Shown: positions 28,793-32,093 of the stretch, piece by piece
How the letters are laid out: the number at the start of each line of letters is the position of its first letter
How positions within the stretch are numbered: position 1 is the stretch's first letter
Made by a program: the position numbers and the translations under genes
DNA from: Aporhodopirellula sallentina SM41
Lineage (GTDB): Bacteria; Planctomycetota; Planctomycetia; Pirellulales; Pirellulaceae
Assembly: GCF_000346505.1 (NCBI RefSeq)
Contig: NZ_ANOH01000411.1
Span: 1 to 41,816, forward strand
Direction: 5' to 3'
DNA: 41,816 nucleotides
The notes under the pieces: model-generated
What the model was told of the DNA's origin: nothing
The model's input: the letters and a program-made list of their open reading frames with translations, nothing else
Databases searched by the model: none

Positions 28793-28840
28793 ACAGGCAA
28801 GACGGTTGGGCAGCCAGACAGGCAAAACGTAGAGGGCGAT

Positions 28841-28923
28841 GGGCTGGGCTGGCATCTGCTGGGCTGGGCATCCGCTGGGCTGGGCATCTGCTGGGCTGGG
28901 CAGAGCTGACATCTGCTGGGCTG
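28841..28923 (+). repeat. Minisatellite, unit GGGCTGGGCATCTGCT
   Basis: Four units and a partial fifth: 28841-28860 (with a 4-bp insertion), 28861-28876, 28877-28892, 28893-28917 (with a 9-bp insertion) and 28918-28923. Open on the minus strand as Pro/Ala/Ser-rich peptide, which I take as chance. Confidence 0.8.
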
Positions 28924-29053
28924 TTCCGAAACGCGAACCGACGCAGCCGGAATCGCCAGAAATCGGAAACCCTTTGCAAATGAAAATGCTCGATTCCATC
29001 CGAGTCATTTTGAACAACGTGATTGCCACGCCCGCGGGGGCGATTCACGTTAC

Positions 29054-29086: not shown

Positions 29087-29366
29087 AACGCACAGGTTTG
29101 CATTCACAACGCAAAGGCTTGCTGCCGGATTTTCCACCGTCCGGTGATGAAGATTCGCCGGAGATAAAGATTCGCCCGGTTTTGAAACCCTGTCGGCTGG
29201 GAAGCCTGTCTGCGGAAAATCCTGTCTGCCGAGCACGCGACGCCGGGTGCGCACCTGCGCATCGGTCGATGTTTGGTTGCCCACATGCGGGCGCTTTGTC
29301 GCAGGTGTCAGGTGGCTGGGGTGCTGGCGATGGCAACCGAGTGAACGTTTTTTTGCGACCGCCGAT

Positions 29367-30335
29367 TTACCCGTGGTTCGATGAGGCCTCTGCGCACGCC
29401 TGAGCGTTTTGATATTCGAATTTCAAACGCAGGATCTCAGCCATCTCGCCGAGTTGCCGTAGGGAATCGCAGTGAGCGGTGAATCGCAAACGCGGACGCA
29501 GCGAATCGGTTAACGCCCGCCCGCCGACTAGCAAAACGACGTCATCGGCCAGCGATTCGGCCATCCGATTTTGCCTGGCGACAAAAGTGTCTTCGTCATC
29601 GATCGACGAAACGCTCAGCCAAACCAGATGCGGGCGACAGTCCACCGTTGCCTGGATAAAACTCTCGAGCGGCAGTTGATTGCCCAGGCTGGTCGCTTTC
29701 CAGCCAACCTCACGCAGGGTCAGTTCCACCAGAGCGGTCGGCAGTTGATATGGATCGCACATGGGCGACCCGCCGATTGCCACCGGCGCATCCTCAGCGA
29801 CCGGTGGCAGGGAACTGTTGAGGTCGAAAATCAAACGCAGAGCGACGTCACACGCCCTGCGTTCCTGGTAAACGTCGATCTCTTCGCACTGCCACGCCTT
29901 ACCAACGCCGTGCATTGCGTCGGCAATCAAGCACTCCGCCGCCTGACTGCGAGACGCCCCCTCGTCGACCATCTCATAGAGCAGGCCGCGGCAGGTCTCA
30001 AACTCACCGCGAGCCAAGGCGTCGCGAAAGCACTGGTTTCGAGGAGATTTTTTTCCCTCCAAGCAGACGTGCCTCGTCGGCAGCATCTTCGGCAAACCCA
30101 ACGTTTCCGGCTTGCAAAGACTCCTCTGCGAGGTCGCTAGGAAACGCTGCAACGCTTCGAGAGAAATTTTTCGGTGGCCTCCAGCCGTTTTTTGGCTGCA
30201 AATGGCACCGCAATCGCACCACCGCTTTACGGACGACTCGCTGACGCTCAGGGCGCAAGCGACTTGTTTCGGCGAAAAGAGTGGTTGTTCTGCAGCCAAT
30301 TTGGGAATTTCGGCGAGAGTTGATGACGGACGCAA
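29367..30335 (-). CDS. MerR-type HTH regulator with degenerate cobalamin-binding-like domain (CarH/LitR-like)
   Basis: 322 residues from a TTG at 30335, directly after an in-frame stop; no ATG precedes residue 84, so a TTG (residue 1 or 13) is needed. Residues 20-68 are a MerR winged helix (FSPKQVACALSVSESSVKRW, TAGGHRKISLEALQRFL). Residues 100-175 fit the four-helix cap of CarH: Trp 148 and Glu 158 have the ten-residue spacing of its Trp and Glu. Residues 183-305 fit a B12-binding Rossmann domain (LTLREVGWKATSLGNQLP, VVLLVGGRAL). However, the His after Glu 158 is Arg, and the axial His of the D/E-x-H-x-x-G motif is Tyr 196 (CDPYQLP). Fifteen Cys occur, with CDCGAIC in the HTH. It is probably a repressor or activator sensing something other than adenosylcobalamin light chemistry, or binding B12 atypically. 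It is divergent from a sigma factor and separated from it by shared TGAACG boxes. Confidence 0.85.
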   Translation of the reverse strand: MRPSSTLAEIPKLAAEQPLFSPKQVACALSVSESSVKRWCDCGAICSQKTAGGHRKISLEALQRFLATSQRSLCKPETLGLPKMLPTRHVCLEGKKSPRNQCFRDALARGEFETCRGLLYEMVDEGASRSQAAECLIADAMHGVGKAWQCEEIDVYQERRACDVALRLIFDLNSSLPPVAEDAPVAIGGSPMCDPYQLPTALVELTLREVGWKATSLGNQLPLESFIQATVDCRPHLVWLSVSSIDDEDTFVARQNRMAESLADDVVLLVGGRALTDSLRPRLRFTAHCDSLRQLGEMAEILRLKFEYQNAQACAEASSNHG

Positions 30336-30351
30336 CTAGAAAACGATCATC

Positions 30352-30476
30352 TTGAACGTGTGTACCCAGCGGGTGAACGTTTTTCGGACGAATTTGATCG
30401 TTTCGATGCAGTGTATGTCAGCGTCAATTCGGAATTTCCAAAGTGAACGAATGAATCAAAACTGAAAAACGTTCAT
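30352..30476. promoter_or_regulatory. Cluster of TGAACG boxes between regulator and sigma gene
   Basis: TTGAACGTG (30352-30360, weak), GTGAACGTTTTTC (30373-30385), GTGAACGAATGAA (30443-30455) and, on the minus strand, ATGAACGTTTTTC (30464-30476). Together with the palindrome at 30538-30573 and a further GTGAACGTTTTT at 29341, just behind the regulator's stop codon, they form an operator-like array. The likely binder is the adjacent MerR-like protein (inference). Confidence 0.65.
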
Positions 30477-30503
30477 TTTTGTAAAAAAAGATCACTCTTC
30501 CGC

Positions 30504-30532
30504 TTGCCTATCATCACCCGCACGCATATACC
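30504..30532 (+). promoter_or_regulatory. Candidate sigma-70-type promoter of the sigma-factor gene
   Basis: TTGCCT (30504-30509), 17-bp spacer, TATACC (30527-30532); four of six matches to consensus in each hexamer. Transcription would start near 30539, the left edge of the palindrome, leaving a leader of about 105 nt. Confidence 0.5.
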
Positions 30533-30537
30533 TGAGT

Positions 30538-30573
30538 GCAATGAACGTTTTCAGGAATGAAAACGTTCATTGC
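30538..30573. promoter_or_regulatory. Perfect 15-bp inverted repeat (double TGAACGTTTTC box)
   Basis: Arms GCAATGAACGTTTTC (30538-30552) and GAAAACGTTCATTGC (30559-30573) around AGGAAT. Each arm is one TGAACGTTTTC box. It overlaps the predicted transcription start of the sigma gene, where a bound dimer would block polymerase; it could also fold in the mRNA leader. Confidence 0.75.
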
Positions 30574-30644
30574 CTGTCGTCTCAGTTTGCAGCCTGCGGC
30601 GTTTACTAATGTTCAGTCTTGTCGAGCAGCTTTAGGTCACGAAT

Positions 30645-31721
30645 ATGAGTTCCTCAACCAAGTCCAAGTCTCGAAAGGCGGCCTCCCAGCCGAATCAGTT
30701 CGAAGGTTTGACGGCATCGTCCGTCGCCGCCCGAATGCCTGCTTGGGTGCAGTGCACGGAGCTGGCGGTGCCGATCGCCGAGACTCGCGATCAGGTCCGC
30801 AATTTGGAAAACGCGACCCCGGAAGAATTGCGGGTGATCACGAAACAACGTCTGCGGCAAGAGATCGACTTCATCGGCAACGAACGTTTCAGTTCGGCCC
30901 GAGAAGGCAAACGAATCTTCGCCGAAGAACTCGGTTTGGCGGAGCGACAGACTGCCCTCGGGATTGCCGCGATCCGACGCAGCGGTGTGGATTTGCCGAT
31001 CCACCTCGGACGGTTGTGCGAAGCCCCGTTGCTCAAACCCGAACAGGAACGTTTGCTGTTCGAGCGGATGAACTATCTGCTCCAACAAGCGGCGATCCAC
31101 CGCAGCGTTCTGAACCCCGATCGTCCTTCACGTCATCGTCTCGAGTTGATTGAACTGTACGTGGCACTCGCGGATTGGCATCGCGACCGGATCGTGGAAG
31201 CCAATTTGCGTTTGGTGTTCTCGATCGTGAAGAAGTTCGTGAATCCGAACAACAGTTTTGACGAACTGCTCAGCGATGGGATCGTTGCCTTGATCCGTGG
31301 CGTCGAGAAGTTCGACTTTGACCGTGGTTTCCGTTTCAGTACCTACGCGACGCAGGTCGTTCGCCGAAACGCGTACCGTACCGTTGTCCTGCGACAGCAA
31401 GAACGCCAGAAAGTCATGGGAGGATTGCAGGACATGGATATCGACATCGGTGAAGAAGAACGGGAATCGGCAATCAGTGAAAAACGATGGCACGAGTTGC
31501 GAAGTCGTTTGAGCGTGATGCTCGGTGATTTGGACCGTCGCGAGAAGTTCATCATCCGTGCACGGTTCTCACTCGGATCACACCGCCGCGTTCACACCCT
31601 TCAATCTCTCGCTGATCGTTTGGGCGTTTCGAAAGAACGCGTGCGTCAGCTTGAGCGACGTGCGATGGATAAACTGCGTGCGATGGCCGGTACGACGGAC
31701 TTGGCCGAACTGGAAGGTTAA
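30645..31721 (+). CDS. Alternative sigma-70 family RNA polymerase sigma factor
   Basis: 358 residues. Region 1.2-like helix about 125-150 (LCEAPLLKPEQERLLFERMN); region 2 about 182-250, nearly complete: VEANLRLVFSIVKKFVNP (2.1-2.2), FDELLSDGIVALIRGVEKFD (2.2-2.3), FRFSTYATQVVRRNAYR (2.3-2.4, promoter melting and -10 contact); region 4 about 295-348 with the -35 helix-turn-helix (TLQSLADRLGVSKERVRQLE). Region 3 is replaced by a short acidic linker (about 258-280), unlike housekeeping SigA. The N-terminal about 120 residues are unlike region 1.1 and may be specific to this lineage. No anti-sigma gene is adjacent; control probably comes from the divergent regulator via the operators between them. 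Confidence 0.93.
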   Translation: MSSSTKSKSRKAASQPNQFEGLTASSVAARMPAWVQCTELAVPIAETRDQVRNLENATPEELRVITKQRLRQEIDFIGNERFSSAREGKRIFAEELGLAERQTALGIAAIRRSGVDLPIHLGRLCEAPLLKPEQERLLFERMNYLLQQAAIHRSVLNPDRPSRHRLELIELYVALADWHRDRIVEANLRLVFSIVKKFVNPNNSFDELLSDGIVALIRGVEKFDFDRGFRFSTYATQVVRRNAYRTVVLRQQERQKVMGGLQDMDIDIGEEERESAISEKRWHELRSRLSVMLGDLDRREKFIIRARFSLGSHRRVHTLQSLADRLGVSKERVRQLERRAMDKLRAMAGTTDLAELEG

Positions 31722-31779: not shown

Positions 31780-31838
31780 GTAGCGAAACTCGCCAAGAGT
31801 TTCGGCAGGGGGGGCTAGGATCGCCGCATGTCTTGGCG
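31780..31838. repeat. REPIN-like element, family 1, right end missing
   Basis: Left end intact (GTAG at 31780; arms CGAAACTC and GAGTTTCG around GCCAA). The right REP stops at CATGTCTTGGCG and lacks the closing arm and CTAC. Confidence 0.75.
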
Positions 31839-31853
31839 GGCTGTTGATTTATT

Positions 31854-31919
31854 CGTTTAATGGGCATCCGTAGACGACCTACTTTCCACTGCACGTCGCC
31901 TACGGCTACCGGTTAAACG
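31854..31919. repeat. CGTTTAA element, family 4, copy 1
   Basis: 66 bp with inverted ends CGTTTAATGG and CGGTTAAACG. Its last 26 bp (31894-31919) are identical to 31978-32003. The centre differs from copy 2. Confidence 0.7.
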
Positions 31920-31936
31920 CAATACCGTTCAATTTT

Positions 31937-32003
31937 CGTTTAACCCGTGCCCGAAGGGTAGGTTGCGTTCCGTCAAGCGTCGCCTACGGCTACCGGTTAA
32001 ACG
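31937..32003. repeat. CGTTTAACC element, family 4, copy 2
   Basis: 67 bp with inverted ends CGTTTAACCC and CGGTTAAACG, in the same orientation as copy 1 and 17 bp behind it. Small internal hairpin GCCCGAAGGG near the left end. Confidence 0.72.
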
Positions 32004-32033
32004 AAAACAGGTTGACTCTTGATTAAATCGACA

Positions 32034-32093
32034 AACCGCCAAGAGTTTCGGCGGAGAGCGTTGATGGCCGGATGTCTTGGCGACATTCGCTAC
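32034..32093. repeat. REPIN-like element, family 1, left end missing
   Basis: Right end intact (GGATGTCTTGGCGACATTCG, then CTAC at 32090-32093). The left REP begins within its loop and lacks GTAGCGAAACTC. Confidence 0.75.

Follow-up and report, generated by a model that had tools for sequence, protein, structure and literature searches.

CarH-type proteins serve as model B12 photoreceptors and as an optogenetic part. In the available sections of one account, domains that respond to light through adenosylcobalamin (AdoCbl) are marked by the signature GxxW, EH, GxxH and GxxxP, with W131, E141, H142 and H177 named as key residues (PMC11796333). Described here is a probable planctomycete variant of the LitR/CarH-type switch, located in a 41,816-nt stretch of DNA from Aporhodopirellula sallentina SM41 (contig NZ_ANOH01000411.1; genome 8.19 Mb), the whole of which is called the window below. 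There, a regulator gene and a gene for a sigma-70 family factor diverge from a 309-bp gap that holds an array of TGAACG boxes. On comparison of the sequences, we consider it probable that the regulator acts as a repressor gating this region-3-less sigma factor in a LitR-type divergent switch, with a changed or absent cofactor. A literature search found no paper joining Planctomycetes and CarH and, among the titles listed, none on this planctomycete regulator, most subscription papers lying outside that search.

The regulator resembles the class I proteins (T. thermophilus CarH, C. thermophilum CtMerR and S. coelicolor LitR) in domain order, fold and the GxxW and GxxxP motifs, and differs from them in that both signature histidines are replaced. 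The light-dependent sigma factor of Streptomyces adjoins LitR and belongs to the extracytoplasmic function (ECF) type, whereas the planctomycete sigma factor is non-ECF. Such a light-dependent sigma factor is also the subject of a title cited in PMC9758184. The accessible part of that article describes the class II LitR proteins of Pseudomonas (PplR, PmlR2), which without B12 repress light-related genes, a photolyase and a furan fatty acid synthase among them. Class II proteins keep only the four-helix B12 domain (PMC9758184, same sections), whereas the planctomycete regulator keeps the Rossmann domain too and is thus not a class II LitR. PmlR2 is released by a short light-oxygen-voltage (LOV) protein (PMC9758184, same sections); none was found among the 12 conserved neighbour clusters scanned, the genome as a whole not having been searched for LOV. 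CarA of Myxococcus xanthus is a further parallel, being, in the part available, a B12-independent CarH paralogue with a proposed inverted-repeat operator (PMC9304148), but it keeps the His-containing B12 motif and EH, is without the Trp and is relieved by CarS. In the SigmaE-ChrR singlet-oxygen system (ECF11), furan fatty acid genes and photolyase are likewise under the command of a sigma factor (PMC6852236, seen in part, photolyase being taken from a reference title); its ECF sigma factor is held by a protein anti-sigma, whereas here a non-ECF sigma factor stands behind a putative DNA-binding repressor. In the SCHIC domain of AppA a cobalamin-type fold has switched to heme, with Arg at the cap position (PMC9144470, available sections), but its His ligand is kept, shifted by two residues, and AppA is not a MerR-type DNA-binding protein. 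In V. cholerae, a MerR-like protein acts beside SigmaE-ChrR in the blue-light response, according to the portion consulted of PMC5241685.

The gene pair and its altered sensor residues

Both open reading frames lie as the original prediction had described, a MerR helix-turn-helix (HTH) protein with a cobalamin-type C-terminus divergent from a sigma-70 family gene, and Pfam and fold agree with it (Table 1). For the regulator, the Pfam models B12-binding_2 (4.8e-7) and HTH_17 (4.9e-6) scored above cut-off and B12-binding (8.8e-4) below it; the Rossmann domain is present in the AlphaFold2 (AF2) model (predicted local distance difference test, pLDDT, 92.7). The best Foldseek matches of this model were CtMerR (8jbt/8jbs) and T. 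thermophilus CarH (TtCarH, 5c8d-f), with a best E of 4.3e-14, and CtMerR was also the top sequence match among solved structures. By predicted domains and modelled fold, a MerR HTH followed by a B12-type C-terminus, the protein belongs to the LitR/CarH family; its score with the NCBIfam CarH equivalog, 31.5 bits, stays below the cut-off of 400.

Relatives were drawn from 98 related genomes (own genome included), 13 of which belong to the genus, and from an 84,980-species collection in which 219 relatives were confirmed. The best 80 of these 219 together with the window make up 81 loci, selected by similarity and two other peptide patterns and not by sensor residues; these 80 are planctomycetes by title, bar one labelled only 'bacterium'. 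The closest named relatives by regulator are Rhodopirellula rubra, Aporhodopirellula aestuarii and Neorhodopirellula pilleata. A regulator (E 1e-3 or better) was found in 62 of the 98 genomes and in 11 of the 13 from the genus, where the sigma gene lies divergently beside it in all 11. The search of related genomes that had been proposed for the pair thus recovered it widely, since among the 81 loci, window included, 53 carry the sigma gene divergently within 2.6 kb of the regulator, and the pair is kept in all 28 relatives with at least 47% identity (L154-L180, L196). At 23 further loci, a sigma match adjoins the regulator in 8. The pairing of regulator and sigma factor is old.

At the sensor positions, the window regulator reads W148-x9-E158-R159 and C193-D-P-Y196 in place of the Wx9EH and GxxH of AdoCbl photoreceptors. 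The residues of GxxW and GxxxP are kept, G145, W148, G218 and P222 being invariant in 59 aligned sequences. The EH of Wx9EH has become ER in 81 of 81 loci, and the His of GxxH (D/ExH), which is the lower axial ligand, is replaced by Tyr in 80 and by Phe in one, the combination W/ER/D.Y occurring in 80 of 81; in the alignment with 8jbs, Tyr196 falls on the His of GDLH. The changed sensor residues that the original prediction had noted were borne out. Among 61 regulator sequences, window and second copies included, 51 show W/ER/D.Y and a single one, the second copy of G023, has EH together with His. Outside the order, part of the matches was fetched (32 frames from 30 loci in 27 genomes), of which 8 carry ER, 23 EH and one is aberrant; the lower position of the 23 EH frames is Tyr in 18, His in 3, Ser in 1 and Thr in 1. 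As judged from these alignments, Tyr in place of the cobalt-ligating His is widespread in the phylum. The sigma gene adjoins one of the 30 outside loci, an ER one. In all cases seen it goes with ER regulators except at L121 (G082), where the regulator next to it keeps EH and has Ser at the ligand position, and an exclusive pairing of the sigma factor with ER regulators was rejected on account of this locus.

A second, distant regulator of like build, about 27-30% identical, is encoded in the genome of A. sallentina (L002/L114, G000:C81:6959-7747); it carries W-x9-ER and, at the ligand position, neither Tyr nor His. Second copies also occur in G003, G011, G012 and G023, the G023 copy (L116) being the one with EH and His.

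The sigma factor matches Pfam region 2 (PF04542, 2.1e-15) and region 4 (PF04545, 9.8e-14) and is a member of the sigma-70 family, and no Pfam match to region 3 was obtained at E 0.1. That it is not of the ECF type, as originally predicted, was borne out by its top matches to MzaA-, RpoD- and SigA-type models and by its solved relatives, SigA and RpoD; with non-ECF best matches it does not fall in with ECF factors of the LitS type (group IV similarity). It also scores above the cut-off of the broad, general sigma70-ECF superfamily model (83.5 bits against 42.9). Region 4.2 closely resembles that of SigA, whereas region 2.4 reads QVVRRNAYR for the WWIRQAITR of SigA. Given the residue roles in regions 2.4 and 4.2, this suggests that the sigma factor uses a housekeeping-like -35 element and a different -10 element, and the TATA-type promoter ahead of its own gene is therefore more likely read by the housekeeping sigma factor.

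A box array between the two genes

Boxes in both orientations and a perfect palindrome had been noted in the 309-bp gap, and both are there, with six TGAACG (30353+, 30374+, 30444+, 30470-, 30542+ and 30564-) and the 28-bp palindrome within which the last two lie. The longer box, TGAACGTTTT, occurs exactly four times in the gap and five times in the whole window, all within 29342-30569, and 37 times in the genome against 19 for a reversed-letter control; at the rest-of-genome rate the Poisson probabilities are about 9e-14 for four in 309 bp and about 2e-14 for five in 1228 bp. Plain TGAACG is not enriched over the whole window (40 seen, 40.5 expected), the non-random part being the clustering of the boxes and the longer TGAACGTTTT box. 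The box reported just behind the regulator stop is indeed present, but its importance did not hold up, as TGAACG appears in the 150 bp behind that stop at only 9 of the 81 loci, counting the window, and at none of the five closest relatives (L154-L158). The putative promoter of the sigma gene was not listed by a stricter consensus promoter scan at its position. The core operator of relatives often contains an extra half-site 9 bp inside, and the palindrome of the window is without such a middle box.

Table 1. Features of the regulator-sigma locus in the window
Feature	Coordinates	Strand	Description
Box behind regulator stop	29342..29351	+	Exact box; not conserved, probably outside the system
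LitR/CarH-like repressor	29367..30335	-	322 aa, TTG start uncertain; MerR-type HTH, four-helix B12-binding_2, Rossmann B12-binding-like domain
Direct boxes, regulator side	30353..30404	+	Three boxes in exact 21-bp steps: TGAACGTGTG at 30353, TGAACGTTTT at 30374, TGATCGTTTC at 30395
Possible regulator-promoter -10	30410..30415	-	TACACT, inferred; similar hexamer visible in genus loci
Second, looser inverted pair	30444..30475		TGAACG at 30444 (+), TGAACGTTTT at 30466-30475 (-)
Putative sigma-gene promoter	30504..30532	+	TTGCCT-N17-TATACC, hexamers at 30504 and 30527; hexamer spacing alike in many relatives
Putative core operator	30542..30569		28-bp palindrome TGAACGTTTT-N8-AAAACGTTCA, beginning 9 nt behind the -10 hexamer
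Non-ECF sigma-70 family factor	30645..31721	+	358 aa; regions 2 and 4 and an N-terminal extension, region 3 unmatched

Lack of conservation of TGAACG where the pair is kept had been set beforehand as an outcome that would refute the original prediction, and it was not observed. We collected 53 regulator-sigma gaps, window included, corresponding to 51 non-redundant intergenic sequences (12-mer overlap below 30%), and TGAACG was present in 50 of them when 14.1 were expected from dinucleotide shuffling; the 8-mer GAACGTTT was present in 44 (2.35 expected). Seven hexamers outrank TGAACG in this set, namely TATA-type words, AACGTT and ATATCG. A TGRACGW box follows a TTGNNN-N17-TANNNN promoter at 1-16 nt in 37 of the 51 intergenics, and the reversed box in none; in these 37, a second box lies 9 bp on in 20 and an inverted arm closes a 28-bp operator in 19. 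On the regulator side, box pairs at 21-22 bp spacing recur in several genus relatives. Tandem or palindromic TGRACG pairs were detected at 41 of the 53 sigma loci and at 9 of the 28 loci without the sigma gene, with none in reversed-letter controls, and because the pairs also occur where there is no sigma gene, the boxes belong with the regulator and not with the sigma factor. Of the no-sigma loci, 27 have 250 bp or more of upstream sequence, and 16 of these show TGAACG within 400 bp (7 for the reversed control), a weaker signal. These comparisons show a genuine and conserved box pattern in the position expected of an operator.

In the available part of PMC9304148 the CarH operator is made of tandem 11-bp repeats nnnnTnnACAn. 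The half-site TGAACG fits the TnnAC of the CarH repeat TnnACA, but the arrangement described there is not found here, where a 28-bp inverted pair, often with 9-bp direct repeats, is accompanied by a regulator-side spacing of 21-22 bp.

In G001 (L014/L084), both palindrome arms are TGGACG/CGTCCA and not TGAACG/CGTTCA, and the HTH recognition helix reads VGEST and not VSESS; L185 combines VGESS with a single TGAACG and a single TGGACG, and the co-change in G001 was treated as a single case and not generalised.

A regulon of further box arrays, which the original prediction had envisaged, did not appear in the genome. At 28 of the 32 other TGAACGTTTT sites examined (those on C444, C446, C457 and C462 left out) no second array was present, each site having one or two TGAACG in 600 bp, and 21 of the 28 lie inside a stop-to-stop frame of at least 250 aa. 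The strict palindrome TGAACGT-N14-ACGTTCA was found in 12 of 98 genomes (backward control 6 of 98), nine of the sites being at the sigma promoter and three elsewhere (G001, G043, G089); within the genus 9 of 13 genomes contain it, 8 at the regulator-sigma locus. For the looser TGAACG-N16-CGTTCA, the 13 genus genomes contained 30 sites (control 7), of which 8 are at the sigma promoter and the remaining 22 elsewhere, some of these 22 being common to close relatives. When direct repeats were searched allowing one mismatch, 5 of the 13 genus genomes gave a match, 4 at the regulator-sigma locus. The close relatives L150 (G004) and L151 (G007) have in common a TGAACG direct repeat with 22-bp spacing, which in L151 lies ahead of a sulfatase-like reading. 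This direct-repeat site is shared by G004 and G007 only and was not counted as a further target.

A proposed repressor-gated sigma factor and competing readings

We infer that the regulator, as a dimer or larger assembly, would bind the TGAACGTTTT half-sites. The 28-bp operator of the window, like those beginning about 4-12 nt behind the -10 hexamer in many relatives, would cover the expected transcription start, and because the palindrome lies just behind the conserved TTGNNN-N17-TANNNN promoter, binding should block initiation by the housekeeping polymerase. The sigma gene is thus likely repressed by the regulator. The regulator-side boxes, two helical turns apart, may be bound as well and so limit the synthesis of the regulator itself, their 21-bp steps suggesting autorepression. 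A signal of light or singlet-oxygen stress type would release the regulator, the sigma factor would be made and, with its housekeeping-like region 4.2 and altered region 2.4, could redirect polymerase to stress genes, which in relatives probably include the operon of flavin adenine dinucleotide (FAD) oxidase, DUF1365, cyclopropane-type synthases (CFA) and DUF1295. The idea of a regulator and sigma factor forming one switch gained support, the boxes being present in nearly all paired intergenics and mostly behind the promoter.

A bolder form of this proposal, which we put forward tentatively and regard as somewhat less probable than its opposite, is that Planctomycetota possess a separate LitR/CarH class, in which Tyr stands in for the cobalt-side His in much of the phylum and Arg for the upper His in nearly all sigma-paired members. 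Such regulators would sense heme, another tetrapyrrole or an oxidation event and gate a region-3-less, non-ECF sigma factor as a replacement for SigmaE-ChrR in the response to singlet oxygen or light.

The regulator could instead be an ordinary CarH-type B12 photoreceptor, binding AdoCbl in the dark, assembling on the boxes and releasing them in the light. The fold and the closest solved relative, both those of AdoCbl photoreceptors, speak for this, as does the invariance of GxxW and GxxxP, two elements of the signature given in PMC11796333 (available sections), but the EH and GxxH elements are altered throughout the loci, so that two of the four key residues W131, E141, H142 and H177 fail (PMC11796333, same sections), and we regard this explanation as unlikely. 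Since the cobalt-ligating His has become Tyr and the upper His Arg, AdoCbl photolysis, the signal in CarH, is probably not what this regulator responds to.

It is still more improbable that the sigma factor itself recognises the boxes as promoter elements, with a GAAC-type -35, a CGT-type -10 and a spacing of 16, forming an autoregulatory promoter and not an operator. GAAC and CGT are frequent in ECF-type promoters and the TGAACG-N16-CGTTCA spacing is promoter-like, but box pairs also stand at regulator loci that have no sigma gene, a -35/-10-like pair already lies just upstream of the box in most intergenics, region 4.2 of the sigma factor is close to SigA, and the direct repeats on the regulator side are unlike a promoter. 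Least probable of all is that the palindrome works as a hairpin in the leader of the sigma mRNA, acting on stability or translation, in place of a DNA operator. Although the palindrome of the window can fold into a stem of 14 pairs closed by a GGAA loop (z of the leader fold -2.63, equalled by 2 of 200 shuffles), the inner bases are mostly asymmetric in relatives, the direct repeat 9 bp inside recurs in 20 of 37, and boxes also occur on the regulator side and without a sigma gene.

Several observations weigh against the repressor-gated switch. The sigma gene is absent within 2.6 kb at 28 of the 81 loci (6 of the 28 having less than 800 bp of upstream sequence), 11 of the 27 no-sigma loci are without TGAACG in 400 bp upstream, and the promoter-box layout is missing from 14 of the 51 sigma intergenics. 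B12 may still be bound in spite of the lost His ligand. Further targets are possible among the 22 looser palindromes. A comparison of box positions at photolyase loci in the 13 genus genomes gave no shared array. Within the genus, DUF1365 occurs in 2 of 13 genomes only (G006, G008), exactly those without the regulator, and it was not found in the genome of A. sallentina itself. Because of this distribution of DUF1365 and of boxes at photolyase genes, a light or singlet-oxygen role is not directly transferable to the window species. Finally, as relatives share ancestry, counts over their loci are not independent.

The sensor chemistry is the most interesting part of the system. A natural clade that keeps the fold, the promoter logic and the company of stress genes, with exactly the two cobalt-side His swapped, offers a ready test of what CarH-type domains sense without the classic AdoCbl chemistry. 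The locus also provides planctomycetes with concrete repressor, operator and sigma factor candidates, and links a non-ECF sigma factor of reduced architecture to a gene set of a kind known elsewhere under ECF11 control.

Neighbouring genes and other observations

Conserved neighbours were identified through Pfam or PDB matches. Behind the sigma gene stands an epimerase that carries a polyketide-cyclase-like domain; the others are an FAD amine oxidase, DUF1365, CFA, DUF1295, fasciclin, photolyase and a nicotinamide adenine dinucleotide (NAD)-binding DUF2867 protein. Within the fetched DNA, the 53 sigma loci have epimerase 28 times, FAD oxidase 4, DUF1365 3, CFA 2, fasciclin 1 and DUF1295 1; the 28 no-sigma loci have fasciclin 9, FAD oxidase 8, DUF1365 8, CFA 8, DUF1295 5, DUF2867 5, photolyase 3 and epimerase 2. 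The sigma gene leads into an FAD-DUF1365-CFA-DUF1295 run in L111 and L252. The FAD-DUF1365-CFA cluster corresponds to the furan fatty acid genes known from the SigmaE-ChrR and class II LitR gene sets. As read from these matches, the neighbours in other planctomycetes form a gene set of light or singlet-oxygen type, and a stress role of the switch in the group is probable. In the two genus genomes without the regulator (G006:C9, L250; G008:C2, L251), a sigma homologue (29-35%) is divergent from an FAD-oxidase/DUF1365/CFA/CFA/DUF1295 operon.

In L252 (G145), the regulator is divergent from the sigma gene, and FAD oxidase, DUF1365, DUF1295 and CFA genes lie behind the sigma gene on its strand, perhaps the older arrangement. 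A PQQ/BamB-type beta-propeller gene lies 3' of the regulator on the same strand in L092, L093, L096, L097, L103, L106, L110, L111 and L112. Elsewhere in the window, the intergenic stretch behind the sigma gene (31791-32052) contains exact repeats, CTACGGCTACCGGTTAAACG twice and CGCCAAGAGTTTCGGC twice, with near copies of CGCCAAGAGTTTCGGC at 2998, 3209, 3247 and 26069, and a short low-complexity stretch of GGGCTGGGCATCTGCT-like units lies beyond the regulator at 28840-28925.

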